Origin: Ideonella oryzae
Lineage (GTDB): Bacteria > Pseudomonadota > Gammaproteobacteria > Burkholderiales > Burkholderiaceae_C
Reading direction: 5' to 3'
NCBI RefSeq assembly: GCF_024055665.1
Contig: NZ_JAMXMC010000009.1
Location: 124,001-188,000, forward strand
Length of the DNA stretch: 64,000 bases
This document shows positions 4,382-26,915 of the stretch, one piece after another. The position numbers were made by a program, and so were the translations under genes. A model generated the notes under the pieces. That model was not told where the DNA came from. It saw only the letters and a list, made by a program, of their open reading frames with translations, and searched no databases. The first letter of the stretch is position 1; each line of letters starts with the position of its first letter.

Positions 4382-5245
4382 ATGGCTTCCTCCCCGACAA
4401 ACCACGGCAGTGCCCCGCCCGACCGGCACAGCATCTGGGGCATCCACGCCCTGTGGGAAGAGCTGCAGGGCGATCTGCCGGACCTGTCGATCGAGGTGGT
4501 GGACCGCCTGGACTCGACCAACGGCGCGCTGATGGACCGGCTGCGCCTGCTGACCCAGGCTGCCCAGGGCCGCCCGCTGCGGACCAGTGACCTGGCGCCC
4601 TCGCTGCTGGTGGCCGTGCAGCAGACCCATGGCCGCGGTCGCCTGGGCCGCAGCTGGGAATCCCTGCCCGGCGCCTCGCTCACTTTCTCGCTGAGCCTGT
4701 CGATCGAACGCCCGGACTGGTCCGGCCTGTCGCTGGCCGTGGGACTGGCGGTGGCCACCGCGCTGGACCCGGCGGGCACCCAGCTGGGCCTGAAATGGCC
4801 CAACGACCTCTGGCGCCTGGACGCGCCGGGCCAGGGCCGCAAGCTGGGCGGCATCCTGATCGAGGGTATGCAGGTGGCCGACCGGCGCATGGCGGTGATC
4901 GGCATCGGCCTGAACATCCTGCCGCTGAGCATGCCCGAGCAGGTGGCGTCGTTGCGCGAATTTCTGCCCCAGCTGGATGCCCCGCAGGTGCTGGCCCGCG
5001 TGATGCCGGAACTGGCCCGGGTGCTGACGCGCTTCGAGCGTGAAGGCTTCGGCGGGTTGGCGGCAGCCTATGCCGCGCGCGATCTGCTGCGCGGACACAC
5101 GGTGACGACCACCGACCCCGCCTGCCCGCAGGGTGAAGCCGAAGGCGTGGCCGAGGACGGTGCCCTGCTGGTGCGGCGAGACGGGCAACTGCACCGCATC
5201 GTCAGCGGCGAAGTGAGCGTGCGCCCCCTGCCCACCCATCCCTGA
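4382..5245 (+). CDS. birA: Biotin--[acetyl-CoA carboxylase] ligase
   Basis: This enzyme activates biotin to biotinyl-AMP and attaches it to the lysine of biotin carboxyl carrier protein. The 287-residue protein has the biotin-binding GRGRLGRSWES motif near residue 84, the KWPNDL motif near 138 and KLGGILIEG near 155. There is no N-terminal helix-turn-helix, so it is the ligase-only type and not a repressor of biotin genes. The N-terminus instead begins close to the catalytic domain. The stop codon is one base before the ATG of the SPOR gene, which indicates translational coupling. Confidence 0.93.
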   Translation: MASSPTNHGSAPPDRHSIWGIHALWEELQGDLPDLSIEVVDRLDSTNGALMDRLRLLTQAAQGRPLRTSDLAPSLLVAVQQTHGRGRLGRSWESLPGASLTFSLSLSIERPDWSGLSLAVGLAVATALDPAGTQLGLKWPNDLWRLDAPGQGRKLGGILIEGMQVADRRMAVIGIGLNILPLSMPEQVASLREFLPQLDAPQVLARVMPELARVLTRFEREGFGGLAAAYAARDLLRGHTVTTTDPACPQGEAEGVAEDGALLVRRDGQLHRIVSGEVSVRPLPTHP

Positions 5246-5246
5246 G

Positions 5247-5930
5247 ATGCTGCGAGCGTTGTTGATCGCCCTGGTGCTGGCCAACCTGGCGGTCTGGGCC
5301 TGGCGCCAGCCCACCGTGGCCCACGCGCTGGGCCTGCCAGGCCCAGACAGCCAACGCGACCCCGATCGTCTGAGCCGCCAGATCAACCCCCAGGCGGTGC
5401 GGGTGGTGCGCGGCGCCCCGTCGACGCCCGCGGCTGCGGCCAGCATGACGAGCGCGGCCTCACGCCCGGCTGACGGGGCCTGCCTGCAAGCCGGCCCCCT
5501 GTCTGAAGCCGCCCTGGCGCCGGCCCTGGCCCAACTCCAGGCCCTCGGTCTGCAAAGCGGACAGTGGCAGGACCAGCGGCAGGAAAATGGCGGACGCTGG
5601 GCGGTGGTGATGGGCCCCTACAAGGCGCCCGATCTGCTGCAGAAGAAGTTGCAGGAACTCAAGGGCCTCAGGATCCAGGCCGACGAGCTGGTCAACCACC
5701 CCCGCCTGAGCCCGGGCCTGTCGCTGGGTCAGTTCGGCAGCCCGGCGGAAGCCGAGTCCCGCCTGGCCCAGGTCAGCCGCCAGGGCGCGCACAGCGCCCG
5801 GGTGGAGGTGCTGGTGCCCCCGCGCGTGGAACACCTGCTGCGGACCACGCCGCTCAGCGCCGAGCAGGTGACCCGGCTGAGCACGGCGAGCGATGGGCCG
5901 CGCTGGCAGGCCTGCGACGCCGCCCCCTGA
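5247..5930 (+). CDS. SPOR-domain membrane protein
   Basis: A 227-residue protein with one N-terminal membrane segment (about residues 2-19), a Pro/Ala-rich linker and a C-terminal region resembling a SPOR domain (residues about 80-185, with RWAVVMGPY and LSLGQFGSPAEAE). SPOR domains bind denuded peptidoglycan at division sites, so a periplasmic cell-wall role is likely. It starts one base after birA. Its last 77 bases overlap the 3' end of the convergent S8 protease gene. Confidence 0.75.
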   Translation: MLRALLIALVLANLAVWAWRQPTVAHALGLPGPDSQRDPDRLSRQINPQAVRVVRGAPSTPAAAASMTSAASRPADGACLQAGPLSEAALAPALAQLQALGLQSGQWQDQRQENGGRWAVVMGPYKAPDLLQKKLQELKGLRIQADELVNHPRLSPGLSLGQFGSPAEAESRLAQVSRQGAHSARVEVLVPPRVEHLLRTTPLSAEQVTRLSTASDGPRWQACDAAP

Positions 5931-13264: not shown

Positions 13265-13654
13265 ATGCAGGGCCTGCACCTCACCGCCGACCTGGTCGGA
13301 TGCCCCATTCAATTGCCGCAGATGACCGACGCCGCGGCCCTGCGCCGAACCTGCCTGGACGCCGTGCGCGCGGCGGGGCTGCAGCCGGTCGGCGAGCTGT
13401 TCCACCGCTTCGCGCCGCACCCGGCGGTGGCCGGCCCCGCGGGTGTCACCGGTGTGGTGCTGCTGGCCGAATCCCACCTGGCGGTGCACACCTGGCCCGA
13501 ACGCAGCGGCGTGACGCTGGACGTCTATGTCTGCAACCTGGGCGAGGACAACTCGGTCCGAGCCGAGGCTCTGCTGCAGGCCCTGCTGGACGCCTTTCAA
13601 CCGACCCGGCAGGCCGTGCAGCGCCTGCAACGGGGTGTCGAGACCGAACCATGA
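13265..13654 (+). CDS. speD: S-adenosylmethionine decarboxylase proenzyme
   Basis: Pyruvoyl enzyme that makes decarboxylated S-adenosylmethionine, the aminopropyl donor for spermidine. The 129-residue length and the motif [14 protein letters not shown] fit the short class 1B bacterial form. Self-cleavage is expected between Glu69 and Ser70, turning Ser70 into the pyruvoyl group; the conserved Cys is in VYVCNLG. It overlaps murU by ATGA, so the two are co-translated. A membrane-bound aminopropyltransferase that could use its product lies 6 kb away at 19763-21370. Confidence 0.93.
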
Positions 13655-14370
13655 CCCAGCAGCCCCCGGCGCCGCCCCGCGCCCTCATCCTGGCGGCCGG
13701 CCGCGGCGAGCGCATGCGCCCGCTGACCGACGCCACGCCCAAGCCTCTGCTGCCCGTGCGCGGCCAGCCGCTGATCGTCCACCACCTGCTGGCGCTGGCC
13801 GCCGCTGGCGTGCGCGAGGTGGTGATCAACACCGCCTGGCTGGAAGAGCAATTTCCGGCCGCCCTGGGCGACGGGTCACGCTGGGGCCTGAAGATCCACT
13901 ACTCCATGGAAGGCCGTGACCACGGCGGCGCGCTGGAGACGGCCGGCGGCATCGCCAAGGCCCTGCCCTGGCTGGCGCCGCAGGGCGAGGAGGCCTTCTG
14001 GGTGGTGTCCGGCGATGTGTTCCTGCCCGGCTTCCCCTTCGCGGCCGCCGAGGCCGCGGCCTTCGCCGCCAGCCCGTACTGGGCCCGGCTGTGGCTGGTG
14101 CCCAATGCCCCGCACCACCCGGGCGGCGATTTCGGCATCGATGCCCGGGGCCTGGCCACGCGGTCCGGGGCTGACAAGCTCACCTGGGCCAGCGTGGGCC
14201 TGTTCAAGCCGGGGCTGTTCGCGGACATCGTGCCCGGCACCCGGCTGGCCCTGCGGCCCCAGCTGGAGGCGGCCCTGGACGCCGACCGTCTGGCCGCCAG
14301 CCGCTGGGACGGCCCCTGGACCGACGTGGGCACGGTGGAGCGCCTGAACGGGCTCAACCTCGGGGCCTGA
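13651..14370 (+). CDS. murU: N-acetylmuramate-1-phosphate uridylyltransferase-type nucleotidyltransferase
   Basis: A 239-residue sugar-phosphate nucleotidyltransferase. The signature [17 protein letters not shown] near residue 11 binds the nucleotide, KPLLPVRG follows, and the metal-binding motif is VVSGDVF near 113. In proteobacteria the closest known role is MurU, which makes UDP-MurNAc during cell-wall recycling; a general nucleotidyltransferase is the alternative. The start at 13651 is chosen because ATG overlaps the speD stop codon (ATGA). It ends 27 bases before a convergent gene. Confidence 0.85.
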
Positions 14371-14397
14371 GCCCCGCGTGATCCGGGCCCCCCGGCC

Positions 14398-15120
14398 TCA
14401 GCCCAGCGCCTCGATGCGCCCCGCGGCGGCGCGCACCCGCTTGAGCATGCCGGCCCGCACCTGGGCCACATGGCCGTGGAACACCAGGTTGCGGTACTTG
14501 CCGATCTCCAGCAACTCGTTGAAGAGGGGGCGCTCGACCTTCTCGTTCTGCAGCAGCGCGTCGATCATCTGCCGGTACGAGTAGCTCACCCGGGTGCTGT
14601 TGGCCCGCTGCGGCACGTAGAGGTCGTGGGTCTTCAGGAAATCGCGGATCAGGCGCTCCAGGTGCAGGAAGGCATCCAGGAACTCCCCGGCCGGCCGGGT
14701 GAGGTCGGTCCCGCCCGTGCCCCCGGCATCCTCCTGGTCCAGCACCTCGGCCGCCGCCTTCTGGTACTTCTTGGGGTCGATGATGGTGACCACGAAGGCC
14801 AGCCCGGAGCCGACGGCGGCCAGGTCCACCCCCGCCCCCACCGACTGCAGCCAGCCTGACACCGCATGCTCGGACCGGTTCAGGTAGACGATGACCAGGC
14901 TCAACACGATGGCCACGCCGGTGAGCCAGGCCAGCCAGGTCAGCCTGCGGTGGTAGTGGCTGCGCAGCGAGGCATGGATGTCCTCCAGCGAGTCGTCCTT
15001 CTCGCGCACCGCATCCATCAGCGAGAGCACCAGGGCATAGCCCGTGAGCAGCAGGGCCACGAAGGCCGAAACGCTTTGGGCCGCCGCGCTGAAGGTCCAG
15101 AAAATGTAGTCGTTGTTCAT
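14398..15120 (-). CDS. Membrane protein of unknown function with RNxxxH motif
   Basis: I do not recognise this 240-residue protein. It has three predicted membrane helices (about 8-32, 55-78 and 92-112) and a cytoplasmic C-terminal domain of about 120 residues. That domain is largely helical and carries KYRNLVFHGH near residue 215, which fits the R-x4-H motif of HEPN ribonuclease-like domains; this similarity is only by motif. It lies 44 bases behind the diguanylate cyclase on the same strand and may be the last gene of that operon. It faces murU convergently. Confidence 0.55.
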   Translation of the reverse strand: MNNDYIFWTFSAAAQSVSAFVALLLTGYALVLSLMDAVREKDDSLEDIHASLRSHYHRRLTWLAWLTGVAIVLSLVIVYLNRSEHAVSGWLQSVGAGVDLAAVGSGLAFVVTIIDPKKYQKAAAEVLDQEDAGGTGGTDLTRPAGEFLDAFLHLERLIRDFLKTHDLYVPQRANSTRVSYSYRQMIDALLQNEKVERPLFNELLEIGKYRNLVFHGHVAQVRAGMLKRVRAAAGRIEALG

Positions 15121-15164
15121 CGCACGGGGCAGGAGAACGTCGGGGCGTCGGGGCCAGCCCGCGC

Positions 15165-16913
15165 TCAGCCGGCCGGCACGGAGCGGACGTCGCCGGAGGC
15201 GTCGCCCGGCATCACCTGGCCGATGAAGCCCACGCCACCGGCGCCCAGCGCCTTGATCGCGTACATCGCCCGGTCGGCATGGGCCAACAGCTCGCTGGCG
15301 CTCTGCCCGTCCTCGGGGAAGTTGCTCACGCCGATGCTGGCGTCGATGACCAGGGCCATCCCGGCCACCGGCACCGGCTCGCGCAGGGCGTTCAGCAGCT
15401 TGTGCGCCACCACGCTGGCCTGCGCGCTGTCCACCGCATCGCCCAGCAGCACCACGAACTCGTCGCCGCCCAGGCGGGCCACGGTGTCCAGTTCACGCAC
15501 CTGGGCCTGCAGGCGCTGGGCCAGAACGCGCAGCACCTCGTCGCCGGCCGAGTGTCCATGCCGGTCGTTGATGATCTTGAAATCGTCCAGGTCGATGAAC
15601 AGCAGGAAGACGCGATGCCCATGGCGGCGGGCCTGCGCCAGCGCCTGTTCCAGCCGGTCCATGAACAGGCGGCGGTTGGCCAGGCCCGTCAGGCTGTCAT
15701 GCTGGGACAGGTGGGCCAGCTCGTCCTGCTTGTGGCGCAGCTCGCCCAGTTGTCGCCGCACCTGCGCCTGCAGCTCGTACAGGCTGCGGGCCAGCGAGCC
15801 CAGCTCGTCGGCCCGGCGCAGCGGCAGATCCTTCATCTCGTGCCCGTCGGCAAAGCCGCGGGCAGAGGCTGCCATCGCATTGAGCGGACGGGTCAGCGCA
15901 CGCCCGAGCAGCAGGGCGCCCAGCAGGGCCACCAGGCTGGTGCCGCCGACGATGCGCAGCAGCGCCCAGCCCATGGCGGTCGATTGCGCCAGGGCCACCG
16001 ATTCCACCTCGGACAGGCCCAGCACCAGGCGGTCGCCATTGGCCGGGGAATCGATGTTCTGCGCCACGAAGGCCGCGATCTGCGCCGGTCGCTCGGCTTC
16101 GGGCGCATCGATCACGGCACTCGTCCGGTCTCCGCTGAGCAGCGGTGCGACCTGGGCGAATTCGTCCTGCAGCAGGGCCCGCTGGCCGCGGTCGAAGGCA
16201 AAGGCCCGGCTGGCGTCGGGATGGATGAGGATGTCGCCGGCGCCGTTGGCCAGGTAGAGCTGGTAGTCCTCCGGCAGATCGGCCGCCAGCAGGCGGAACA
16301 GGCCGTTGAGGTCCACATTGACCACCACCACGCCCAGGGCCGGCCCCACATGCTCGCGCACCGGAATGGCCATCTGCAGCATCGGCAGGCCCGGCCCGGT
16401 CCCGGCGCTGGTCTCATGGTTGATGGAGATGCGCGAGAGGTAGAAGGCCCCGTCCTGCAGCGGCAGGGCATCGGCCACGTAGGGGAAGTGGCCCTTCTCC
16501 TCCAGATCGTCGCCGCTGACCCGCTGCGGCACGCTGCCCACCCGGTCCACCCGCACCCGCTCCAGGCCATGGCGGTCGGCGGCGATGACCCGCAGCTGCA
16601 GGTAGGACGGGTTGGCGTCCAGCACGCCGGCGAACAGCACGGCCAGCCGGTCGGCATCGTCGGGACGGTCGTGTTCCAGCAGCTGCCGGGTGACCGGCAG
16701 ACGGGCGATGACCTGCAGATTGCGCTCGATGGACTCCAGGTTGAGGGTGATCCGGCGCGCCAGCACCTGGGTCGAGGTCAGCAGCTCGCTGTGGGCCGAC
16801 TGGCGCTCCAGCCGGCAGCTGGCATCCCAGGCGTAATAGCCGGTCAGGCCGGCGGCGCCGCAACCCAGCACGGCCATCCACAGGGTCAGACGGGTGGCGA
16901 TGCCCAGCTTCAT
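15165..16913 (-). CDS. Membrane diguanylate cyclase: periplasmic Cache-like sensor, HAMP, GGDEF
   Basis: A 582-residue sensor that makes cyclic di-GMP from two GTP. It has an N-terminal membrane helix (about 8-28), a periplasmic sensor region of about 270 residues of dCache type, a second helix (about 302-325), a HAMP-like segment (RALTRPLNAM), a coiled linker and a GGDEF domain (DSLTGLANRR at about 410, LGGDEF near 480). RELD, five residues before GGDEF, fits the inhibitory I-site. There is no EAL domain. Its ATG overlaps the stop codon of the upstream periplasmic binding protein gene, which strongly suggests that the two proteins form one signalling pair. Confidence 0.9.
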   Translation of the reverse strand: MKLGIATRLTLWMAVLGCGAAGLTGYYAWDASCRLERQSAHSELLTSTQVLARRITLNLESIERNLQVIARLPVTRQLLEHDRPDDADRLAVLFAGVLDANPSYLQLRVIAADRHGLERVRVDRVGSVPQRVSGDDLEEKGHFPYVADALPLQDGAFYLSRISINHETSAGTGPGLPMLQMAIPVREHVGPALGVVVVNVDLNGLFRLLAADLPEDYQLYLANGAGDILIHPDASRAFAFDRGQRALLQDEFAQVAPLLSGDRTSAVIDAPEAERPAQIAAFVAQNIDSPANGDRLVLGLSEVESVALAQSTAMGWALLRIVGGTSLVALLGALLLGRALTRPLNAMAASARGFADGHEMKDLPLRRADELGSLARSLYELQAQVRRQLGELRHKQDELAHLSQHDSLTGLANRRLFMDRLEQALAQARRHGHRVFLLFIDLDDFKIINDRHGHSAGDEVLRVLAQRLQAQVRELDTVARLGGDEFVVLLGDAVDSAQASVVAHKLLNALREPVPVAGMALVIDASIGVSNFPEDGQSASELLAHADRAMYAIKALGAGGVGFIGQVMPGDASGDVRSVPAG

Positions 16914-18013
16914 GAGCGCAGCACCTTGGCCACCGAATCACCCGAGACGATGCGCCGCCACAGGCGGTTGCGGCGGTCGTCGTCCTCCACCGGCTCCAGC
17001 CACACCAGGGGGGCGGTGAGCGCCGGGGCATCGCCGTCGTTGGTGGTGGCGCCCAGGCCCTGGCGCTGGCGCAGGGCTTCCGAGGCCGCCGGCGACAGCA
17101 TGTGGTTGATCCAGGCATGGGCCAGGTCGGGATCCCGGGCCTGGCGGGTCACGGCCCAGCAGTCCAGCCAGGCCAGGGCCCCTTCGCGGGGCAGGGCGTA
17201 GCGCACATCCAGGCCGGCCTGGCGCAGCAGCTGGAACTGCTGCCGGCCGTAATTGGCCAACATCAGCCAGACGCCACGGCGCCGGAACAGGTCCAGCGAT
17301 TCTTCCGGCAGGGTGTAGAAGCCGCTGACGTTGCGGCGCAGCGCCACCAGGCTTTCCACCAGCATCGGCCACTTGGCGGCGGGGATGCGGAAGGGCGAGG
17401 GCAGGCCCAGCTTCTGCGCCGCCAGCGAGAAGGCGTGGGTGCCGCCGTCGTAGGCCAGCACCCGCCCCTGCAGACGCGGATCCCACAGCGCCGCGATGGA
17501 GGCCGGCGGCGTGGCGAAATGGTCCGGGTGGTAGATCAGCCCCATCTCGCTCCAGGCGTAGGGAATGGCATAGCTGCGGCCGCCGTGCACCAGCCCGGGA
17601 ATGCCTTCCAGGGCCTGGAAGCGGGGCAGCTGCCGCTGCCGGCCCGGCAGGTTCTTGAGCTGCAGCGGCTGCACGGCGTTCAGTTGGATGTAGCGCTGCA
17701 GCTCGGCCGTGTTGACGGCCACGACGTCGAAGTTGGCCCCGGGGCCGGGCTGCATGTGGTGCCACAGGGCCTGGTCGGTGTCGACGATGGTGAGTTCGAC
17801 GCGCGCGGCCAGGTTCTGCTCGAAGCGGTGCACCAGGTCCGGATCGGCGTAGCCCGGCCAGGCGAGCACCCGCAGCGTGCGGCTTTCGGCGGCGCAGGCG
17901 GGCCCGGCGCTCAGGCTGAGGCAGGACAGCACGACGCGGCCCAGATGGCGCCGACGCCACCCCCCTGCCAACGCAGCCTCCCGCTCGTCACGAACCACGG
18001 TCGAATCCGACAT
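16910..18013 (-). CDS. PotD-like periplasmic binding protein, probable partner of the diguanylate cyclase
   Basis: A 367-residue extracellular solute-binding protein of the spermidine/putrescine type. A signal peptide of about 42 residues precedes AESRTLRVLAWPGYADPDLV, which matches the start of mature PotD-like proteins. WLDCW near residue 280 corresponds to the WMDSW ligand motif of PotD as I recall it (Trp and Asp contact the amine groups). No ABC transporter ATPase or permease genes are nearby. The only partner is the diguanylate cyclase that overlaps by four bases (ATGA), so sensing rather than uptake is likely. The ATG at 18013 is chosen because it gives a signal peptide; the frame remains open further upstream. 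Confidence 0.82.
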   Translation of the reverse strand: MSDSTVVRDEREAALAGGWRRRHLGRVVLSCLSLSAGPACAAESRTLRVLAWPGYADPDLVHRFEQNLAARVELTIVDTDQALWHHMQPGPGANFDVVAVNTAELQRYIQLNAVQPLQLKNLPGRQRQLPRFQALEGIPGLVHGGRSYAIPYAWSEMGLIYHPDHFATPPASIAALWDPRLQGRVLAYDGGTHAFSLAAQKLGLPSPFRIPAAKWPMLVESLVALRRNVSGFYTLPEESLDLFRRRGVWLMLANYGRQQFQLLRQAGLDVRYALPREGALAWLDCWAVTRQARDPDLAHAWINHMLSPAASEALRQRQGLGATTNDGDAPALTAPLVWLEPVEDDDRRNRLWRRIVSGDSVAKVLRS

Positions 18014-18120
18014 CTCATCCCGTCGCGCGTTGTCTCCCCGGCCTGGACTGGCGCCGGGTGTCGCATCGTAACGGCAGACTCCAGCCAGCCGTCGTGTGAA
18101 TTGTTCCCCGACTCTGTGGC

Positions 18121-19749
18121 TCAGTCGCCACCTGAGAGACTCGATTGTCCGGCCTGCCGACCCAGGGTAAAAGCCTCTTCGAACACCGAGTAACCGGCCA
18201 ATTCCGCGTGGGCGAAGCGCAGCCGGCCGCGCATGGCGCGCAGGGCGGCCAAGGCGGCCGAGCCCCGGGTGCCCGGCACGGGAATGCGCATGGCGTGGCC
18301 GTGGCGCATCAGGTCGGCGGCCCGCAGGCGCCGCGGCAGGTCCGGGTGGAGGGGCGCCAGGTCGGCCAGCACCCGCTGCAGCCAGAAGGCCGCGGGCTGG
18401 TCGCGCAGGGCCGGGCGATCGGCCTCGGCCAGCGCGTGGTAGACCGTCCACACCGGCGGCACCGGCCGCGGGTCCAGGCGTTGGTGGGTGGCGTCCACAT
18501 AGCCCAGGCAGCGGGTGCTGCCGGCGGGGGCAAAGCCGACGTTGTCCCAGGCCGGCGGAAAGCCCGGGCGCGCCAGCGGCGGCTCATCCAGTGCCAGGTT
18601 GCTGACCAGCCAGGGCGCGTAGCGGGCCCCGGCCGCCGCGGCCACCAGGGCCGGCGGCGGGTTGACCAGCACCCGGGCGGCGATGAACAGCGGCAGCGCC
18701 AGCACCGCCTGCGGGGCCTGCCAGGCCTCGACCCGGCCGGCCGCCTCGTTCCAGACGGTGACGCTGACACCCTGCCGGTGCGCTTCCACCGCCAGCACGG
18801 TCTGGCCAGTGTGCAGGCGCTCACTCAGCGGCTGAGCCAGGCGTTGCGTGAGCCAGCCATTGCCCTCGGGCCAGGTGAACAGGCCCGGATCGGCCTCGGC
18901 CGGCTCGCCCGGGGCGTCGAAGCCGTGCCGGCTGGCGAAGTAATGCAGCCCGGCCCAGGCCGAGACCGTGTCCAGCCCGGCGCCGTAGTCGTCGCGGCAG
19001 GCGTAGTCCAGGTAGGCCCGCAGGCGGGCGTCGTCCAGGCCCTCGGCGGCCAGCCAGGCGGCGAAGGTCTGGCCGTCCAGCGCGGCATGGGCCGGCGTCC
19101 AGGGCGCGCGCCAGGTGGGCAGGGCAAAGCCCAGGCGGCGGGCCTCGGTCACCCGCCGGGCAAAGCGGCGGTACTGGTCCAGCGTGGCCGGCCGGCCGGC
19201 CGCCGAGGGCAGCTGCCCTTCCTGCCAGGCGCCGTCGATGAACAGGCGCTCCTGCGGCGCATGGCAGAGGAAGCGCTCGTCGGGCCGGCTGGCGCCGCGC
19301 AGCCCGTCCCATTGCAGCAGGCCGATCTCGTGCAGCCACTCGCCCACCTCGTGGGCGGTGGGGCCGGGCACCGGCAGGTAGTGGGCGCCCAGCGGGCAGC
19401 CCTGCCCGGCCAGCACATGGCCGCGGGCGTTGCCGCCCACGGTGTCCTCCAGCTCCAGCAGCTGGGCATCGTCCACCCCGGCGCGCACCAGGGTCCGCAG
19501 GGCCGACAGGCCCGCCACCCCGCCGCCCAGCACCAGGGCGCCGGCCCGGCGGGTGACGGCCGGCGCCGGCCAGCCGCCGGCCTTGCGCTCGCGCAGGCGG
19601 TGGCCGCGCTCCAGCCAGGCGCCGACCCAGCGCACCGGAAGGTCGGCGGGCAGGCCGGCCGAGGTCTGCGGCGTGCAGCCCGGCAGGGCCCCGCCGGCGG
19701 CCAGCGCCAGGCTGCCGCCCAGCCAGCGGCGGCGGGTCGGGCCGTTCAT
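18121..19749 (-). CDS. FAD-dependent amine-oxidase-like protein with Tat/lipoprotein-type signal
   Basis: A 542-residue flavoprotein. The N-terminus TRRRWLGGSLALAAGGALPG followed by Cys looks like a twin-arginine signal ending in a lipobox (LPGC), so it may be an exported lipoprotein. After it comes the FAD-binding Rossmann motif VLGGGVAGLSALRTLVRAG near residue 72, with LELEDTVGGNARG behind it, as in flavin amine oxidases and protoporphyrinogen-oxidase relatives. It starts 13 bases after the aminopropyltransferase gene. In this context oxidation of a polyamine or an aminopropylated product is a reasonable guess; the substrate is not shown by the sequence. Confidence 0.78.
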   Translation of the reverse strand: MNGPTRRRWLGGSLALAAGGALPGCTPQTSAGLPADLPVRWVGAWLERGHRLRERKAGGWPAPAVTRRAGALVLGGGVAGLSALRTLVRAGVDDAQLLELEDTVGGNARGHVLAGQGCPLGAHYLPVPGPTAHEVGEWLHEIGLLQWDGLRGASRPDERFLCHAPQERLFIDGAWQEGQLPSAAGRPATLDQYRRFARRVTEARRLGFALPTWRAPWTPAHAALDGQTFAAWLAAEGLDDARLRAYLDYACRDDYGAGLDTVSAWAGLHYFASRHGFDAPGEPAEADPGLFTWPEGNGWLTQRLAQPLSERLHTGQTVLAVEAHRQGVSVTVWNEAAGRVEAWQAPQAVLALPLFIAARVLVNPPPALVAAAAGARYAPWLVSNLALDEPPLARPGFPPAWDNVGFAPAGSTRCLGYVDATHQRLDPRPVPPVWTVYHALAEADRPALRDQPAAFWLQRVLADLAPLHPDLPRRLRAADLMRHGHAMRIPVPGTRGSAALAALRAMRGRLRFAHAELAGYSVFEEAFTLGRQAGQSSLSGGD

Positions 19750-19762
19750 CGCGGCGCGGCCC

Positions 19763-21370
19763 TCACGGCTGGTGCACCTGGCCCCACTCCTCTTCGAAGG
19801 TGTGGACCAGGCCCTGGGTGGACAGGCGGTTGGGCTCGGCCGGCACCCGGGCCATGTCGGGCGGGAAGTCGAACAGCGCCGGCAGGCCCGACAGGGTCAG
19901 GAAGCGCAGGCCCGGCGGCAGCGCGGCCGGCGGGTGCCAGGGCCGGTGGCTGGCCAGGATGAAGCCCCATTCGCCGAAGCTGGGCACATCGGCGTGGTAC
20001 GGGGTGGTGGTGAGGCCCACCGCCTCCAGCGTGGCCGCCACCGTCCAGAAGCTCTTGCGCGCCACCAGCGGCGAGGTGGTCTGCACCACCGCATAGCCGT
20101 CGGCCGCCAGGTGCTGGTCCACCAGGGTGTAGAAGGTGGTGGTGTAGAGCTTGCCCAGCGCGAAGTTGGTCGGGTCGGGAAAGTCGATCACGATGACGTC
20201 GTAGACATCCTCGGGCCGGTCGTGGGCGGCCAGCCAGCCGAAGGCATCTTCGTTGACGACCTTCAAGCGCGGGTCGGTCAGCGAGCCGTGGTTGAGCGCC
20301 GTCAGCAGCGGCTGGGTGGCGAAGAGCCGCGTCATCTGCGGGTCCAGCTCCACCAGGGTGACCTGCTGCACCGAGGGGTACTTGAGGATCTCGCGCGCGG
20401 CCATGCCGTCGCCCCCGCCCAGCACCAGCACCTTCCTGGGCGCGCCCTGGGCCGCCATGGCGGGGTGCACCAGGGCCTCGTGGTAGCGGTACTCGTCGCG
20501 CGAATGGAACTGCAGATTGCCGTTGAGGAACAGGCGGATGCCCGCCCGGCTGCGGGTGACGACCACGCGCTGGTAGGCGCTGGTCTCGCGCAGCAGGATG
20601 GTCTCGCCGTAGAAGCGGTCCTCGGCCCAGGTGGTCAGGCGCTCGGCCCCGGCCAGGCCGGCCAGCAGCGTCACGACCACCGCGGCGCAGGCCAGCGCAT
20701 GGGCCCGCCAGTGGCGCAGGCTGCGGCGGAACAGCCACAGCGCCCAGACCGCCACGCCCGCGTTGAGCAGGCCGAAGAAGAAGCCGGTGCGGATCAGCCC
20801 CAGGTGCGGCACCAGCAGCAGCGGGAAGGCCAGAGCCACCACCAGCGCGCCCAGGTAGTCGAAGGTGAGCACCTGCGAGACCAGGTCCTTCAGCCCGTAG
20901 CGGGCCTGGAAGTGGCGCTTGAGGATGCGCATGACCAGCGGGATCTCCAGCCCCACCAGCACGCCCACCAGGACCACCAGCGCGTAGAGCAGCACCAGGA
21001 AGGGCGCCTGTGCCGCCACCGGCAGGCTGGAGTGGGCGATGAACAGAGCCGCCGGCAGCGTGCCGCCCACCACGCCCACCAGCAGCTCGATGCGCAGGAA
21101 CTGCGCCACCAGCTGGCGGTCGATGAAGCGCGAGAGCCAGGAACCCACCCCCATGGCCGCCAGGTAGGCGCCGATGATGGTGGAGAACTGCAGCACAGAG
21201 TCGCCCAGCAGGTAGCTGGCCAGCGCGCCGGCGCTCAGCTCATAGACCAGGCCGCAGGCCGCGATGACGAAGACCGAGGCCAGCAGCAGCACCTCGGCGG
21301 CCGAGACGGTGCTCGGCGCCTCGTCGCGCGCGGGGGCGCCGGGCACGTCCGGTGGAACAGAAACGGTCAT
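19763..21370 (-). CDS. Membrane-fused spermidine-synthase-like aminopropyltransferase
   Basis: A 535-residue protein with seven or so N-terminal membrane helices (about residues 25-235) joined to a SpeE-like domain. That domain has the substrate motif DEYRYHEALVHP, the AdoMet-type fold VLVLGGGDGMAAREIL, and DFPDPTN in place of the usual D-x-x-DP acidic motif. It should transfer the aminopropyl group of decarboxylated AdoMet to an amine; the exact acceptor is unknown. The start at 21370 overlaps the stop codon of the DUF350 gene (ATGA). speD, the donor-making gene, is 6 kb away. The neighbourhood with DUF350, DUF4178 and SPFH proteins recurs around this enzyme type in bacteria. Confidence 0.85.
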   Translation of the reverse strand: MTVSVPPDVPGAPARDEAPSTVSAAEVLLLASVFVIAACGLVYELSAGALASYLLGDSVLQFSTIIGAYLAAMGVGSWLSRFIDRQLVAQFLRIELLVGVVGGTLPAALFIAHSSLPVAAQAPFLVLLYALVVLVGVLVGLEIPLVMRILKRHFQARYGLKDLVSQVLTFDYLGALVVALAFPLLLVPHLGLIRTGFFFGLLNAGVAVWALWLFRRSLRHWRAHALACAAVVVTLLAGLAGAERLTTWAEDRFYGETILLRETSAYQRVVVTRSRAGIRLFLNGNLQFHSRDEYRYHEALVHPAMAAQGAPRKVLVLGGGDGMAAREILKYPSVQQVTLVELDPQMTRLFATQPLLTALNHGSLTDPRLKVVNEDAFGWLAAHDRPEDVYDVIVIDFPDPTNFALGKLYTTTFYTLVDQHLAADGYAVVQTTSPLVARKSFWTVAATLEAVGLTTTPYHADVPSFGEWGFILASHRPWHPPAALPPGLRFLTLSGLPALFDFPPDMARVPAEPNRLSTQGLVHTFEEEWGQVHQP

Positions 21371-21594
21371 CCGTGGATGGCGGCGGCCACGATCTGGCCG
21401 ATGGCGATGAACATGCCGGCCACCACGATGCCCAGCGCCACGTTCTTGTGCTCGACGATCTCCTCCCACAGCTTGTAGGGGGTGATCTTGTCGATCACCG
21501 CGAAGCTCACCCACAGCAGCGCCACGCCCAGGAGCGCGTACAGCACCGAGCCCAGCACCACGTCGGGGTGCAGCCAGTCCCAGCTCATGATCAT
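21367..21594 (-). CDS. Small DUF350 inner-membrane protein
   Basis: A 75-residue protein with two hydrophobic helices (about 12-30 and 50-72) and the pattern ALGIVVAGMFIAIGQIVAAA typical of one DUF350 unit, as in E. coli YjfL. Function is unknown. The start at 21594 is preceded by GGAGG at good distance. It overlaps the aminopropyltransferase start by four bases, so production of the two proteins is coupled. An alternative start is the Met two codons later. Confidence 0.82.
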   Translation of the reverse strand: MIMSWDWLHPDVVLGSVLYALLGVALLWVSFAVIDKITPYKLWEEIVEHKNVALGIVVAGMFIAIGQIVAAAIHG

Positions 21595-21628
21595 CGTTCC
21601 ATCCTCCGCGAAGGCCGGGGCGCGGCAC

Positions 21629-23248
21629 TCACTTGTGCCCGCCCCCGCCGGTTGAAAAGCCGCCGAACGAGCCGCCGCCCGTGCCGGTGCTGAAGCCGCC
21701 CGAGCGCTGCTGCCGGGCCAGGCACTGCTGGTATTCGGTGCTGGCCGGGCCGAAGGTGGCGCGTTCGTCACTGCAGGCGTCCTCGCTGCCGCAGCGGCTC
21801 ATCAGCAGCATCACCACGACCACCACGATCAGGATGATCAGCCCCTGGCTGAGCCCGCCGCCCTTGCCGGTCAACGGGGTGGCGTCGCGCCGCAGCGCCG
21901 CGGCAGCCGGGCCGCTCAGGCCGAAGGCGGTCTGCACCGCGCCCGCCTCCAGCGTGCGGCCCAGCGACCAGACCACCTCGCGCCCGGTCTCCTCGCGCGA
22001 GAGCACCGCGCCGGCCGGGCCGTCGTAATCGGTGACTGTGGCGCGCTCGTCGCGCTGCACCCGCCAGTAGAACTCGCCCTGCACCCAGGTGACCTTGGCG
22101 TCGTAGCGCCAGCGCTGGCGGAACACCCGTCCCTCCAGCATGGCCTGCTCGCCGCGCACCGTCGGCACGCCCGTCAGCGGCCGCACCCAGCTCCAGCCGT
22201 CCTCGGCATCCACCAGGAAGGCGAAGCCCGCGGTGCGGTGGTAGAGCAGGTACTCGCGCCAGAAGGTCTGCTCGTCGTCGCTGCCCGGCGCGGGCAGGTC
22301 GCAGCGCTCCTGGTAGCCCACCACCTGCCAGTCCAGCGGCCCCTCCGCGCCCAGCGCCAGCCGGCCGGTGCGGCCCAGCGGGATCTGCGGCTCCAGCCCG
22401 CCCGCGCCGCTGTTGGCCTGGGCGTAGCAGGCCAGGTCGGCCCCCAGGCCCAGGGAGATGTCCACCACCGCATGGCACTGCGCGCAAGTGAGGCTTTGCG
22501 TGCTGGCCAGCGTGGGCGCCATGGCGGCACCGCAGCTGGGGCAGGCGAAGCTGCGGCCGGCCACCGTCTTCTCGCTGCTCTCCTTCAAGCCCTGCAGCGC
22601 CAGCTCGGCCAGCGCCACGCTGCGGCCGATGGCCCATTGCAGCGGCGTGCCGTCGGCGTCGTCCAGCGTGCCCACCTCGCCGCGCTCGTTGCGCAGGTCC
22701 ACCACGGTGAAGCTGCCCTGCAGCTTCGGCGGCCGAGGCAGCTCGCCCTGGGCGGCGATCAGCGAGGCCGTCTGCACCGAGGCCACGCTCCAGGCCCGGC
22801 CATCCACCAGCACCCGCTGGCCGGCGAACCAGCCATCCAGCGCCGGGGGCTCGGCCAGCGGCGGCTGGTCGAAGCTCAGCACATAGGCGCCGTTGTCCTC
22901 GCTCAGCCAGGCCGGGCGGGGTGGCGCGTCGGCCCCGGCGTCGAACAGCAGGTGCCATTCGTTCCAGGTGCCCTCGGGGTAGCGGTACTGCAGCCGGCCC
23001 ACCAGCGTGAAGCCCACGCCCTGGTGGCGGCCGGTGGCGCCCAGCTGCAGCGGGCTGTGGTCATCGAACAGTTCGGCGCTGACGCCGATGCGGCGCAGGG
23101 CCTCGCCCTCGCGCACCAGGGTGCTGCGGCAGAAGCTGCAGACGGCGCTGGCCGAGGCCGCCGAAGCGAACTCGACCGGCGCCCCGCAGTTGGGGCACAG
23201 CGCGCGCCAGGCCCGCTGGGGCCGCGGCGTGGAAGACGGCTCGGTCAC
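21629..23248 (-). CDS. DUF4178 protein with zinc ribbons and C-terminal membrane anchor
   Basis: A 539-residue protein with two copies of a zinc ribbon plus a beta-rich DUF4178 domain. The first ribbon is CPNCGAP near residue 18 with CSFC near 38; the second is CPSCGAA and CAQC near 235 and 255. A single hydrophobic segment near residue 480 (IILIVVVVVMLLM) is followed by a Cys-containing and Gly/Ser-rich tail. The function is unknown; the architecture suggests a membrane-anchored cytoplasmic or envelope adaptor. It sits 19 bases behind the SPFH gene and 34 bases before the DUF350 gene. Confidence 0.8.
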   Translation of the reverse strand: MTEPSSTPRPQRAWRALCPNCGAPVEFASAASASAVCSFCRSTLVREGEALRRIGVSAELFDDHSPLQLGATGRHQGVGFTLVGRLQYRYPEGTWNEWHLLFDAGADAPPRPAWLSEDNGAYVLSFDQPPLAEPPALDGWFAGQRVLVDGRAWSVASVQTASLIAAQGELPRPPKLQGSFTVVDLRNERGEVGTLDDADGTPLQWAIGRSVALAELALQGLKESSEKTVAGRSFACPSCGAAMAPTLASTQSLTCAQCHAVVDISLGLGADLACYAQANSGAGGLEPQIPLGRTGRLALGAEGPLDWQVVGYQERCDLPAPGSDDEQTFWREYLLYHRTAGFAFLVDAEDGWSWVRPLTGVPTVRGEQAMLEGRVFRQRWRYDAKVTWVQGEFYWRVQRDERATVTDYDGPAGAVLSREETGREVVWSLGRTLEAGAVQTAFGLSGPAAAALRRDATPLTGKGGGLSQGLIILIVVVVVMLLMSRCGSEDACSDERATFGPASTEYQQCLARQQRSGGFSTGTGGGSFGGFSTGGGGHK

Positions 23249-23267
23249 GCGAACAACAGCGGCGTGC

Positions 23268-24296
23268 TCAGACCAGCTTCTTCAGCAGCTCGGCCTTCTT
23301 GGCCGCGAATTCCTCGTCGGTGAGGATGCCCTTGGCCTTGAGCTCGCCCAGCTTCTCCAGCGTGGCCATGATCTCGTCGGGCTGGATCCCAACGGCCCCC
23401 GCAGCGGCGGCCGCCGCGCCGCCCAGGCCCTGCCCGAGCTGTTGCGCCAGCACCTGGCCCAGCGCCACGCCGGCCCCCAGGCCCATGGCGTCGCCCGCCA
23501 CGCTGCCGCCCTGGCCCACGCCCTCGGCCAGCTTGGGGATGGCCTGGGCCGTCTGGTACTGCATGAACTGGCCCATGTTCTGGCCCACCATGCCCATGCC
23601 GATCTTCTGGTCCAGGATCTTCTGCAGTTCCTCGGGCAGCGAGACGTTCTGCACGGTCACGCCCTCGAGCTTCAGGCCCAGGGCCTCGAAGGACGGCGCG
23701 GTGGCCTGCTGCAGCTGCTGGGCGAACTCGACCTGGTTGGCCGCCAGGTCCAGGAAGGGCACGCCGCTCTGCGCCACCGCGTCGCTGATGTGCTGCAGCA
23801 TCAGACCGCGCAGCTGGCCGTCCAGGTCGGCCGCGGTGTATCGCTCGCGCGTGCCGGAGATCTCGGTGTGGAAGCGCTTGGGGTCGGTGATGCGGTAGCT
23901 GTAGTTGCCGAAGGCGCGCAGCCGCACCGCGCCGAAGTCCTTGTCGCGCAAGGTGACCGGCTGGCTGGTGCCCCAGCGCTGGTCGATCTGCTGGCGGGTG
24001 CTGAAAAAGTAGACGTCGCTCTTGAAGGGCGACTGGAACAGCTTGTCCCAGTTCTTCAGGTTGGTCAGCAGCGGCAGGGTCTGGGTGGTCAGCGTGTGGC
24101 GGCCCGGGCCGAACACATCGGCCACCTGGCCTTCGTTGACAAACACGGCCATCTGGCTCTCGCGCACCGTCAGCGAGCCGCCGTACTGGATTTCATGGTC
24201 GGCCATGGGGTAGCGCCAGGCCAGGGTGCCATCGCCCTCCTCGGTCCACTCGATGACGTCGATGAACTGTTTCTTGATGAAATCCATCAGGCCCAT
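23268..24296 (-). CDS. SPFH-domain protein with C-terminal SHOCT domain
   Basis: A 342-residue protein of the bacterial SPFH/virion-core-protein-like (YdjI) group. It begins MGLMDFIKKQFIDVIEW, has the SPFH (band-7-like) domain in residues 30-230, an Ala/Gly/Gln-rich linker, and ends in a SHOCT motif (ELKAKGILTDEEFAAKKAELL). SPFH proteins form membrane-associated assemblies. It is the first gene of the minus-strand polyamine/envelope block, and a possible -10 (TATTAT, 24340-24345) lies 44 bases upstream of its ATG. The open frame extends far upstream, but 24296 is the only start that fits the family. Confidence 0.87.
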   Translation of the reverse strand: MGLMDFIKKQFIDVIEWTEEGDGTLAWRYPMADHEIQYGGSLTVRESQMAVFVNEGQVADVFGPGRHTLTTQTLPLLTNLKNWDKLFQSPFKSDVYFFSTRQQIDQRWGTSQPVTLRDKDFGAVRLRAFGNYSYRITDPKRFHTEISGTRERYTAADLDGQLRGLMLQHISDAVAQSGVPFLDLAANQVEFAQQLQQATAPSFEALGLKLEGVTVQNVSLPEELQKILDQKIGMGMVGQNMGQFMQYQTAQAIPKLAEGVGQGGSVAGDAMGLGAGVALGQVLAQQLGQGLGGAAAAAAGAVGIQPDEIMATLEKLGELKAKGILTDEEFAAKKAELLKKLV

Positions 24297-24392
24297 GCTC
24301 GGCTCCCAGGCATCCGCCGGCCCCTCGCCGGCGCGGCGAATAATACGCGTCGGGGCCGGAGCGTCCAGCCCCCTGTTCTGACGAGCCTGCCC
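24297..24392. promoter_or_regulatory. Divergent promoter region: SPFH operon / UbiH-type gene
   Basis: The gap of 96 bp contains the only AT-rich patch of the area, AATAATA at 24339-24345. Read on the minus strand it gives TATTAT, a plausible -10 for the SPFH-led operon. No good -35 is visible. A short GCCGGC repeat pair flanks CCCTC at about 24317-24333. Confidence 0.35.
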
Positions 24393-25628
24393 ATGGACAC
24401 CCCCACCTCCGCTCCCCCGGCCCTGCGCCCGCTGCGCCTGGCCGTCATCGGCGCCGGCCCGGCCGGCCTGGCCCTGGCCCTGCTGGCCGCGCGCGAATGG
24501 CCCGAGGCCGCCGTCACCGTCTTCGATGCCCGCCCGGCCGAAAAGGATGTGTCGGGCGACCCGCGCACCCTGGCCCTGTCGCTGGGCAGCGTGCAGTTGC
24601 TGCAGCGCCTGAAGGCCTGGCCCGAGGGCGTGGCCCAGCCCATCACCCAGGTGCATGTTTCGCAGGTGCCGCCCACCTTCAACGGGGTCTTCGGTCGCCA
24701 GTTGCCGCAGGCCGAGGTGCGCATCAGCGCGCAGGAGCAGGCCGTGCCCATGCTGGGCGCGGTGCTGTCCTATGGCCAGGTGGTGGCGCCGCTGCAGGCC
24801 GCCTGGGTGGCGGCCTGCGCCGCCCAGCCGGGCCGTTGTGCGATGCGCTTCGGCACGCCGGTGGCGGGCCTGAAGAACCTGCCCGAGCATGGCGGGGTCG
24901 AGGTGGACGCCGGCATCGTCGAGACCTTCGACCTGGCGGTGGTGGCCGAGGGCGGCGTCTTCGCCGAACAGGCCCGCAAGGCCGTGGTGCGCGACTACCA
25001 CCAGAACGCCTGGGTGGGCCCGGTGACGCTGGACCACGACATGCCGCCGGGCCTGGCCATGGAGCGCTTCACCCGCCATGGGCCGCTGGCCCTGCTGCCG
25101 CTCAAGCCCGCGGCCGATGGCACGCGCCGCGCCTCGCTGGTGTGGTGCGTGCCCAGCCAGGACGACCCGGTGGCCACCCTGGACGAGACCCAGCGCCTGA
25201 CCGTCATCAACAGCCTGCTGCCCAGCGCGGTGGGCCGGCTGACGGGGGTGGGCCCGCTCAAGTGCTTCGCCCTGGGCCTGAATGCCGAGCGCACGCTGGT
25301 GCAGGGCCGCCAGGTGCGCATCGGCAACGCGGCCCAGACCCTGCACCCGGTGGCCGGCCAGGGCCTGAACCTGGGTCTGCGCGACGCCTTCGCGCTGGTG
25401 CAGGCCCTGCGCCACGCGCAGGACGTGGACGCCGCGCTGCGCCGCATCGAATGGCAGCGCGCGCCGGACCGCTGGAGCATGATCGCCGCGACCGACTTCC
25501 TGGCCCGCAGCTTCACCTGGCAGTGGCCCGGCCTGGGCGCCCTGCGCGGCCTGGGCCTGGCCGCCCTGCAGGCCCTGCCGCCTGCGCGCCACGCGCTGGC
25601 GCGGCAGATGATGTACGGGCGGAGGTAA
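24393..25628 (+). CDS. UbiH/UbiF/VisC-family FAD monooxygenase
   Basis: A 411-residue flavoprotein hydroxylase of the ubiquinone-biosynthesis family. It has the FAD-binding AVIGAGPAGLALALLA near residue 17, an RTLALS segment near 58, and the second FAD motif GNAAQTLHPVAGQGLNLGLRD near residue 310. These enzymes hydroxylate the aromatic ring of ubiquinone precursors. Which position this paralogue modifies cannot be told from sequence alone. The ATG at 24393 starts 18 residues before the Rossmann motif. Confidence 0.88.
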   Translation: MDTPTSAPPALRPLRLAVIGAGPAGLALALLAAREWPEAAVTVFDARPAEKDVSGDPRTLALSLGSVQLLQRLKAWPEGVAQPITQVHVSQVPPTFNGVFGRQLPQAEVRISAQEQAVPMLGAVLSYGQVVAPLQAAWVAACAAQPGRCAMRFGTPVAGLKNLPEHGGVEVDAGIVETFDLAVVAEGGVFAEQARKAVVRDYHQNAWVGPVTLDHDMPPGLAMERFTRHGPLALLPLKPAADGTRRASLVWCVPSQDDPVATLDETQRLTVINSLLPSAVGRLTGVGPLKCFALGLNAERTLVQGRQVRIGNAAQTLHPVAGQGLNLGLRDAFALVQALRHAQDVDAALRRIEWQRAPDRWSMIAATDFLARSFTWQWPGLGALRGLGLAALQALPPARHALARQMMYGRR

Positions 25629-25655: not shown

Positions 25656-26915
25656 CTACCCAGAGATCACCCGTCCGTTCACATCGAATGTGGGTTCAGG
25701 CATGTGGGACTCATACGTCCTGCCGCCATCCAGGGGACCGTCGAGCACGGATCCATCTGCCGTGAACCGCCATTGCCGGGTGCCCCCGTCCCAATGGATG
25801 CGCCCTTCAGTGACCGCGAAGTACACCCGCTCCAAATAGTGCTCCACGCTCGGCGCCACCTCCTGGCGGGTCTTCCAGTCCGGTGTGACGGTGTAGCGCA
25901 CCAGGGGAATGGATTCGACAAAGCGCCGACCGTCCTCGTGGATGCCGATGGGGTTGGCAATGCCATTGAGCGGGCAGCGAGTCCGCTGAACTACCCAGAA
26001 CGCACGCTGCTCCTCGTAGGGCATCCAACGCCCCATGCCCGCGAACAGCGGCGGCGCTTCGCGCTCCATGCCATCGTGCCGGTAGTAGAGCGGCTCCTGA
26101 CACCACGACAAGAAGGGCGTCATGGTTCTTGAGTAGATCGGCCCTGTATATCTGTGGGCAATGATCTGCTCATGCGTCAGCCCTGGCCGGAACCCGCCGT
26201 TCGGCAATTCCGGGCACAGCCGGCACCACAGCGCCTCGATGCGCGCCCACAGCTCATCGTCTGACAAGCGGCGCGAGGGCGAGGCGCCGGCCAGCAACTG
26301 CGCCACGCTCAAGCCCGGCAAGGTGCTGCCCCACACGCCCTCAGCATCGCGCTGCAGCGCCCCGGACTCCCAGTTCTTCAGCACTGACAGGAACAGCCCC
26401 GGCAGATCGCCCGCCAGGATGGCCGGCGTGCCGTCGTCGGAGACGTCGAAGGCCACCACCTGCCCGCGCTTGCCGGCCTTGGCCGGGTTCAGGTCCAGCA
26501 CCAGGCATTCGTCGCCGCCCAGGGTGGCCACCGGCACCCGCCGGGGCAACGCGAAGGTGTTGAAGACGGCACCACCGGCTTCGTTGATGTTCTTGCGCTG
26601 CTCGCGGACGATCTCGCGCATCGTCGGGTCGGCAGCGGCCTGCTGGGCCACACGCCAGAGCGACAGCATCTCCGGATCCAGCAGCGGCAACCAGCGGTAG
26701 CCGGCCAGCAGCTCGGTGCCATGCTGCATGCCGTTGGCCATGCCGTAGAGCTGGCGCACGCCGGCCGGCAGCGGCAGGCCCAGGGCCTCCTCGGCGGCGG
26801 CCATCTCGGCCTCGGTGGCCGGTGGGTTCAGGCCCCCGTTGGGCAGGTCGGGGGCCAGGGCCAGGGCCATCTTCTGCAGGCGCTGGCCCAGCCGCTGGCG
26901 ATCACGCTTGTTCAT
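25656..26915 (-). CDS. SMI1/KNR4 (SUKH) family protein with divergent C-terminal half
   Basis: A 419-residue protein. Residues 1-190 form a SUKH domain (LPNGGLNPPATEAEMAAAEE, then GLPLPAGVRQLYGMANG). Near residue 255 the beginning of a second copy appears (LCPELPNGGFRPGLTHEQI), but the rest of that half does not look like SUKH. SUKH proteins often act as immunity proteins of toxin systems, or as interaction modules. The C-terminal part (25656 to about 26170) uses codons such as AGA, TAT, ACA and TCA that are rare in the neighbours. I chose ATG 26915; an in-frame start 63 bases upstream is possible. Confidence 0.75.
   Translation of the reverse strand: MNKRDRQRLGQRLQKMALALAPDLPNGGLNPPATEAEMAAAEEALGLPLPAGVRQLYGMANGMQHGTELLAGYRWLPLLDPEMLSLWRVAQQAAADPTMREIVREQRKNINEAGGAVFNTFALPRRVPVATLGGDECLVLDLNPAKAGKRGQVVAFDVSDDGTPAILAGDLPGLFLSVLKNWESGALQRDAEGVWGSTLPGLSVAQLLAGASPSRRLSDDELWARIEALWCRLCPELPNGGFRPGLTHEQIIAHRYTGPIYSRTMTPFLSWCQEPLYYRHDGMEREAPPLFAGMGRWMPYEEQRAFWVVQRTRCPLNGIANPIGIHEDGRRFVESIPLVRYTVTPDWKTRQEVAPSVEHYLERVYFAVTEGRIHWDGGTRQWRFTADGSVLDGPLDGGRTYESHMPEPTFDVNGRVISG

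Follow-up and report, generated by a model that had tools for sequence, protein, structure and literature searches.

Two separately conserved modules in one gene block of Ideonella oryzae: a membrane aminopropyltransferase operon and a solute-binding protein-cyclase pair

Introduction

In Vibrio cholerae and Sinorhizobium meliloti, the NspS-MbaA system consists, according to the accessible parts of two reports (PMC9993111, PMC8079147), of a PotD-like periplasmic protein and a HAMP-containing membrane enzyme for cyclic di-GMP (c-di-GMP), which are encoded as a two-gene unit. A likewise composed pair of a solute-binding protein (SBP) and a diguanylate cyclase is present in a block of eight genes in Ideonella oryzae, where it follows an operon for a membrane-fused polyamine aminopropyltransferase. 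This block, located on the minus strand from position 24296 to 14398 of the analyzed stretch of 64,000 nucleotides (the window, whose positions are used throughout) of a 4.70-Mb genome, is the subject of this study. An earlier note had read it as a single circuit, in which the level of an aminopropylated envelope compound is reported through c-di-GMP. This reading is mostly not supported, as the block consists of two modules which are each conserved as a unit, whereas their join is conserved within the genus only. It is likely that a known envelope operon (module A) has here an NspS-MbaA-like c-di-GMP sensor, probably one for a ligand other than a polyamine, as its neighbor (module B), with one cargo gene in addition.

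The pair differs from NspS-MbaA in its output enzyme. In the accessible text, MbaA contains an SGDEF motif plus EAL or EVL and lacks an I-site, whereas the window cyclase has a canonical GGDEF motif together with an RxxD-type I-site (RELD), and no EAL domain was found in its 582 amino acids (aa) by a Pfam search with E-values up to 0.01. Common to the window and that system is thus the coupling of a PotD-fold SBP with a membrane enzyme for c-di-GMP, but neither the output composed of GGDEF plus EAL nor the set of polyamine-contact residues. In the L-arginine response of Salmonella (ArtI-STM1987; PMC8846402, as far as accessible), it is also a dCache_1 cyclase which needs a periplasmic binding protein for its response. 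There, the binding protein ArtI binds arginine; in the window, by contrast, the genes for SBP and cyclase make up a single unit. Beyond these two systems no betaproteobacterial SBP-cyclase pair was found in print, with most subscription journals outside the search and its absence from the literature hence unproven.

Operons of the module A type have been published before. The accessible part of PMC11237479 describes operons with a membrane-fused spermidine-synthase-like protein, DUF350 and DUF4178, and a related variant with a band-7 plus SHOCT protein, S-adenosylmethionine (AdoMet) decarboxylase and polyamine oxidase. The window contains the same kinds of proteins, including the N-terminal membrane fusion of the transferase. 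As described there, the DUF4178 operon has a CesT/Tir-PspA dyad, and the band-7-SHOCT/decarboxylase/oxidase variant is that of an ATP-grasp group. Elements of both variants occur together in the window, whose block contains neither the dyad nor an ATP-grasp gene. It further differs from the operons in this part of the report in that speD is convergent and outside the operon, and in that a sensor pair follows.

Results

Two modules within one block

The eight open reading frames (ORFs) lie head to tail with intergenic distances of 19/34/-4/13/107/-4/44 bases:

23268-24296, minus strand: SPFH (Band 7) protein with C-terminal SHOCT, 342 aa; Pfam PF13421 (Band_7_1) 260 bits, PF09851 36.9 bits; module A
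21629-23248, minus strand: DUF4178 protein, 539 aa; PF13785 110 bits; one C-terminal hydrophobic segment (460-491); module A
21367-21594, minus strand: short DUF350 membrane protein, 75 aa; PF03994 59.7 bits, profile positions 7-66 of 133; module A
19763-21370, minus strand: membrane-fused polyamine aminopropyltransferase (PRK03612 type), 535 aa; NCBIfam NF002956 680 bits (cut-off 472), PF01564 120 bits; module A
18121-19749, minus strand: flavin adenine dinucleotide (FAD) oxidoreductase, amine-oxidase-like, with a Tat-type lipoprotein signal, 542 aa; NAD_binding_8 33.5 bits; module A
18014-18120, minus strand: 107-base interval between modules A and B, the widest gap of the block
16910-18013, minus strand: PotD/PotF-fold periplasmic SBP, 367 aa; SBP_bac_8 67 bits; module B
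15165-16913, minus strand: Cache-like sensor-HAMP-GGDEF diguanylate cyclase, 582 aa; GGDEF 166 bits, HAMP 26.9 bits; module B
14398-15120, minus strand: protein with three transmembrane segments and a C-terminal RNLVFH stretch (perhaps HEPN-like), 240 aa; accessory, not conserved

All eight co-directional genes and domains named in the earlier note were confirmed by ORFs and profile matches, and its two ATGA overlaps (DUF350 with transferase gene and SBP with cyclase gene, 4 bases each) and largest gap of 107 bases are correct.

Linkage of the modules

The linkage was followed in draws of 120 genomes from the family and 300 from the order, in 16 genomes of the window's genus, in 80 named loci kept from 442 SBP relatives in a scan of a species-genome collection, and in 40 further transferase loci of the family, which were picked for contig room from 59 other transferase genomes. 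The named-relative scan may omit records very near the window's own, and several of its loci come from genomes that also appear under G numbers (e.g., L125, L126; loci are given as L and genomes as G numbers). The reading span was at least 3.6 kb to each side for 13 family loci and at least 2 kb for 21 order loci (more than 5 kb for 19 of them); 71 of the 80 named loci had at least 3 kb upstream, with the transferase being sought within 8 kb. The 40 transferase stretches extended ~8 kb to the upstream and ~10 kb to the downstream side, were shortened by contigs in two cases, and were searched with the window proteins.

Outside the genus the two modules are not neighbors. None of the 13 other family carriers and none of the 21 other order carriers has the SBP-cyclase pair beside the transferase gene, and two of the 80 named loci, both from Ideonella, have the transferase within 8 kb of the pair. 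In eight of the 13 family carriers the transferase gene is on a different contig or at a distance of more than 0.6 Mb; five carriers lack it at 1e-40, the threshold at which absence was judged in the family draw. Conversely, no SBP orthologue lies beside the transferase in the 40 further loci. The functional join of pair and transferase proposed in the earlier note is not supported by these counts. Conservation of the neighborhood, the test set beforehand for this join, is missing outside the genus and present inside it, in five of six carriers. Modules A and B are thus each conserved as units, while their join is conserved within the genus only.

Within the genus, the SBP is encoded in six and the FAD gene in 13 of the 16 genomes. 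A linkage unique to the window's genome was rejected, since four congeners also carry it. Four of the five carriers of the joined locus are close species. All five joined loci show module A, SBP and cyclase, followed by the nucleotidyltransferase, speD, transketolase and glyceraldehyde-3-phosphate dehydrogenase (GAPDH) genes; in the pair-less locus L121, the FAD and nucleotidyltransferase genes are 371 bases apart. In the cyclase tree, the pairs from the joined loci group together as a single clade (support 96/95); the SBP tree shows the same with weaker support (78/81). We read the trees as one insertion followed by losses, or as one later transfer; the joined arrangement in the genus probably has one origin. 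Module B would have been inserted between the FAD gene and the nucleotidyltransferase gene in the lineage leading to part of the genus, probably in a single event. Between the window and G123, synonymous divergence (dS) is 0.09-0.22 for the genes from SPFH to FAD, compared with 0.44-0.58 for the SBP-cyclase pair; speD (0.44) and the nucleotidyltransferase gene (0.32) are likewise diverged, and transketolase and GAPDH genes reach 0.18-0.19. This contrast reflects either separate histories or codon bias. As a side observation, the SBP gene of the closest sister, G124 (L092, 9215-10315, minus strand; 96% identical), has an in-frame TAG at a conserved ANYG stretch, which is either an early pseudogene or a sequencing error in this two-contig assembly.

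Module A

The five-gene order SPFH-DUF4178-DUF350-transferase-FAD is kept in all seven loci from six other genera and from the congener G076, which have no module B beside it, and in ten of 11 other loci of the genus, four of which also have module B; the remaining one, L122, is truncated by its contig. Counting the pair-less transferase loci of the genus only, the order is found in six of seven, the seventh again being L122. In L081 and L097, the DUF350 and transferase genes are separated by an additional 1.2-2.4 kb. In the 40 further loci, the same-strand neighbors of the transferase are FAD (39), DUF4178 (34), DUF350 (34) and SPFH (32) genes, and a SpeD match lies inside 18 of the stretches. 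As the FAD gene adjoins the transferase in 39 of 40 loci, these two proteins form the tightest core. The recurrence of the SPFH/DUF4178/DUF350/aminopropyltransferase set, mentioned in the earlier note, is borne out, with the first five genes being a conserved unit in relatives. The window has what characterizes such operons: a fused transferase, DUF350 and DUF4178 in the same unit and an available AdoMet decarboxylase.

The transferase exhibits hydrophobic windows over residues 18-245 and the motifs GGGDGM, DFPDP and RYHE, and its residues ~253-487 match solved polyamine aminopropyltransferases. The genome holds one SpeD (a single PF02675 match) and one full transferase; a second transferase-type match is partial (24 bits, contig C30). 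With one copy of each, it is very probable that the transferase uses decarboxylated AdoMet made by SpeD, and the idea of SpeD as aminopropyl-donor source is supported. Membrane-fused transferases reportedly do not replace spermidine synthase and are said to use an acceptor other than putrescine.

At its N-terminus, the FAD protein has a twin-arginine signal with a lipobox-like cysteine at the end. This RR...C signal was detected by regular expression in 49 of 57 loci and by eye in seven more, the last one (L122) being cut by a contig. As the matches of the FAD protein to solved proteins (polyamine oxidase, MAO-B and one oxidoreductase; E 0.0013-0.0072) are weak and confined to the FAD-binding end, amine oxidation is only a putative activity. 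From the genes and the signal that were found we infer the following chemistry: decarboxylated AdoMet would be made by SpeD, encoded nearby, the membrane-fused transferase would add the aminopropyl group to an acceptor, the SPFH, DUF4178 and DUF350 proteins may organize this transfer at the membrane, and the Tat-exported FAD lipoprotein would act on product or substrate at the periplasmic side.

Module B

The SBP was modeled by AlphaFold with a mean predicted local distance difference test (pLDDT) score of 86.1. Its closest solved fold is YdcS (Z 32.6, root mean square deviation (rmsd) 3.4 over 310), and it matches E. coli PotD (8y5i_E) with Z 30.2 and rmsd 2.2 over 304, PotD and PotF both being at about Z 30. 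ArtI belongs to another class of SBPs. In the family draw, 36 of 120 genomes match the SBP at 1e-10; besides the window, 13 contain orthologues (E 2e-82 or better, 46-59% identity), while the other 22 matches share 22-28% identity. The best named relatives are from Ideonella sp. B508-1 (85%) and Ideonella benzenivorans (71%).

The cyclase gene adjoins the SBP gene on the same strand in all 13 other family carriers, among which the SBP of G027 is in two pieces and the cyclase match of G062 spans residues 1-420 only. It lies directly downstream in 78 of the 80 named loci, the other two stopping at contig ends, and four Burkholderia records show both genes side by side. Of 77 named loci, 73 offer an ATG or GTG precisely at the -4 overlap, which is an upper bound because the start nearest to -4 was chosen. 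In the order draw the cyclase is adjacent in 12 of 21 other SBP carriers. Module B is, accordingly, a stable and self-contained pair that is widespread without module A.

SBP orthologues without an adjacent cyclase occur in L106, L107 and L111-L117. Some of their neighbors are an ABC exporter-type gene (L114), a convergent PAS-chemoreceptor gene (L107), a histidine kinase gene (L113) and a family-3 SBP gene on the other strand (L106). No PotABC-type transporter was found among 12 proteins scanned with Pfam from about six to seven of these loci (L106, L107, L111-L114, L116).

The sensor region of the window cyclase matches PF21623 (34.8 bits, cut-off 27) and, below its cut-off of 45, dCache_1 (37.5 bits). 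Of 31 aligned cyclases, 24 contain GGDEF, four GGDEY, one AGDEF and one SGDEF, with one not being covered. By analogy to NspS-MbaA, the periplasmic SBP may capture a small solute and attach to the cyclase at its periplasmic domain, altering the GGDEF output; the gene pair itself was observed directly.

Ligand of the binding protein

The pocket of the window SBP and 12 orthologues was aligned with E. coli PotD and PotF, for which aligned residues alone were used since the protein starts are mechanical. The polyamine contacts considered are those of PotD, with which the letters of the E. coli protein at these numbers agree. W34, Y37, W255 and D257 are kept in the 13 aligned rows and in 80 of 80 named loci. 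Replaced in all 13 rows are E36 (by G), S83 (by N), Y85 (by A), E171 (by H) and W229 (by N, once by T). The named loci agree, with G for E36, N for S83 and N for W229 in all 80, H for E171 in 79 and A for Y85 in 77; a distant order-level member, G237, has Q instead of H at the E171 site. The nearly invariant replacements of E36, E171 and W229 make a polyamine an unlikely ligand. The contacts of NspS given in the accessible part of PMC9993111 are W41, D70, D90, F131, Y233, D236, W261 and D263; by spacing only, the SBP positions that correspond to D90, Y233 and D236 of these are N101, N254 and a variable residue. Judged from these residues, the ligand is probably not a polyamine. The "polyamine-type c-di-GMP sensor" of the earlier note hence stands as a c-di-GMP device of the SBP-plus-cyclase kind, while "polyamine-type" is doubtful because the residues holding polyamines in PotD/PotF are replaced.

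In plasmid records beyond Burkholderia, the nearest relatives (31-36% identity) are ATP-binding cassette (ABC) transporter SBPs from Rhizobium and Phaeobacter. Transporter-linked relatives (L206, L207, L208) lie amid FucU/RbsD, SMP-30, mandelate-racemase, altronate-dehydratase and similar genes, and such sugar-acid or L-fucose-like catabolic clusters are a clue to the ligand class; the unannotated L205 was left aside. In the pocket alignment these relatives are 31-32% identical to the window SBP, compared with 21-22% for PotD/PotF; G54, W282 and D284 of the window pocket are present in them, N101, H193 and N254 are not.

Last gene and surroundings

The last protein of the block contains three hydrophobic segments (13-39, 59-82, 93-116) ahead of the RNLVFH stretch. 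It has one other match among the 120 family genomes at 1e-4 (25% identity, G071/L086, elsewhere in the genome), which contains RNSIIH. The gene is frameshifted in G128, a fragmented assembly, represented by its C-terminal part in G124, and a remnant beside an aldo/keto-reductase-like ORF (labeled by eye) in G123; it was not found in the joined locus of G127. The gene or its remains thus precede the nucleotidyltransferase gene in four of the five joined loci. Since it is broken, cut or absent in sister species, it was rejected as part of the system and is unstable cargo. Its model reaches a pLDDT of 61.7, and HEPN-toxin chains (HepT, SO_3166) are its top-ranking fold matches with E-values no better than 0.1, so that a structural identification was rejected. 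RNLVFH was compared with the RxxxxH-type motif of HEPN domains, which lies on a four-helix bundle, and the protein is perhaps HEPN-like. PADLOC, run on four proteins, yielded weak matches for it (E 0.0067 or worse).

The genes next to the block are:

13265-13654, plus strand: speD (S-adenosylmethionine decarboxylase); PF02675 92.9 bits, match at 13277-13636; convergent, outside the block
13651-14370: NTP_transferase (nucleotidyltransferase) gene, between speD and the block

The nucleotidyltransferase is presumably MurU-like. Beyond speD, the transketolase and GAPDH genes follow. The earlier note had placed speD just beyond the block, which holds for the distance; it is, however, on the plus strand, convergent and behind the NTP_transferase gene. 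For these reasons it does not belong to the transcription unit of the block, and as an operon member it was rejected. Upstream of the block, a SMI1/KNR4 (SUKH-1) protein of 419 aa is encoded at 25656-26915 (minus strand), with a PADLOC match to PDC-M40A (E 7.7e-13). The sole promoter-like site found by consensus scan within 14000-24800 precedes the SPFH gene. In the 107-base interval (18014-18120), the scan revealed neither a sigma-70-like promoter nor a terminator-like site; over the whole 10.8 kb, no terminator was found versus 1.8 expected from shuffles.

Discussion

The comparisons are best explained by two modules plus cargo. Nothing shows here that module B reads the product of module A, and it is very unlikely that such a product, aminopropylated or FAD-oxidized, arrives in the periplasm as a ligand of the PotD-like SBP and is reported through the cyclase. 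Co-direction, the 107-base gap, the linkage in five of six genus carriers and the PotD/PotF fold would fit with this idea. However, the linkage is missing in the rest of the family draw, in the order draw and in 78 of 80 named loci, at 1e-40 the transferase is missing from five of the 13 family genomes that encode the pair, the amine-holding pocket residues are replaced, and the SBP gene of the sister G124 has an in-frame TAG. The higher dS of the pair between window and G123 (0.44-0.58 vs. 0.09-0.22 from SPFH to FAD) points in the same direction, although speD and the nucleotidyltransferase gene resemble the pair and codon bias is possible. A related idea, namely that in part of Ideonella the transferase operon captured the widespread betaproteobacterial pair, which now reports an envelope compound made by transferase and FAD protein via c-di-GMP, appears hardly probable. 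If it were true, the nearly invariant pocket (G54, N101, H193, N254, D284) would fit a single-amine ligand over a linear polyamine.

Module B might also be a true sensor of environmental polyamines of the NspS-MbaA kind that stands beside module A by chance. As this differs from the two-module explanation in the ligand alone, the odds of the two overlap. The PotD/PotF fold and the nearest named families, the coupled gene order as described for nspS-mbaA in the accessible part of PMC9993111, and the kept W, W and D contacts are in favor of a polyamine sensor, which nevertheless is rather unlikely given the replaced PotD residues E36, E171 and W229, the NspS residues D90, Y233 and D236 that are not matched by spacing, and the plasmid-record relatives outside Burkholderia, which are transporter SBPs of sugar-acid-like catabolic clusters, with the pocket shared in part only. 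That c-di-GMP genes are drawn to the aminopropyltransferase operon in general, whatever the sensor, is improbable as well. In G078, from another genus, the interval between the FAD and nucleotidyltransferase genes is occupied by an unrelated GGDEF protein encoded on the opposite strand (L077, ~4700-6260), and GGDEF matches follow the FAD gene in G062 and L124. With these three prompting loci left out, GGDEF matches occur at most 5 kb downstream in four of the 40 further loci versus 1.5 expected (Poisson P 0.06). This weak excess is gone at 8 kb (4 vs. 2.3 expected, P 0.19), and the expectation is uncertain because the control consisted of 20 stretches with three GGDEF matches in 388 kb. The excess downstream of the operon is suggestive at most.

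Several observations weigh against the two-module explanation. SBP and FAD genes are neighbors in five of six genus carriers (window, G124, G128, G123 and G127; apart in G132), and this adjacency reaches as far as the congener G127, whose transferase is 76% identical; a selected link would also show such kept adjacency within the genus. The transferase tree groups G127 with the pair-less G076 and G129 (91/93) and not with the clade of the window, and losses or one transfer must therefore be assumed. Module B itself is not universal, since nine of 21 order loci (families f5, f14 and f22) have the SBP with no adjoining cyclase. D80 of the SBP is invariant and lies, by spacing, near D70 of NspS as numbered in the accessible text; together with the two Trp and one Asp contacts kept, this makes a cationic ligand possible. 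Finally, with neither a promoter nor a terminator detected between the two modules, transcription may read through the 107-base gap.

The first reading merged two systems that are each conserved, and treating them separately guards against a spurious pathway. For module A, the FAD Tat-lipoprotein turns out to be the most constant partner of the transferase in the family, which points to a periplasmic redox step. For module B, a common betaproteobacterial SBP-cyclase pair emerges that has a strictly conserved, non-classical pocket.

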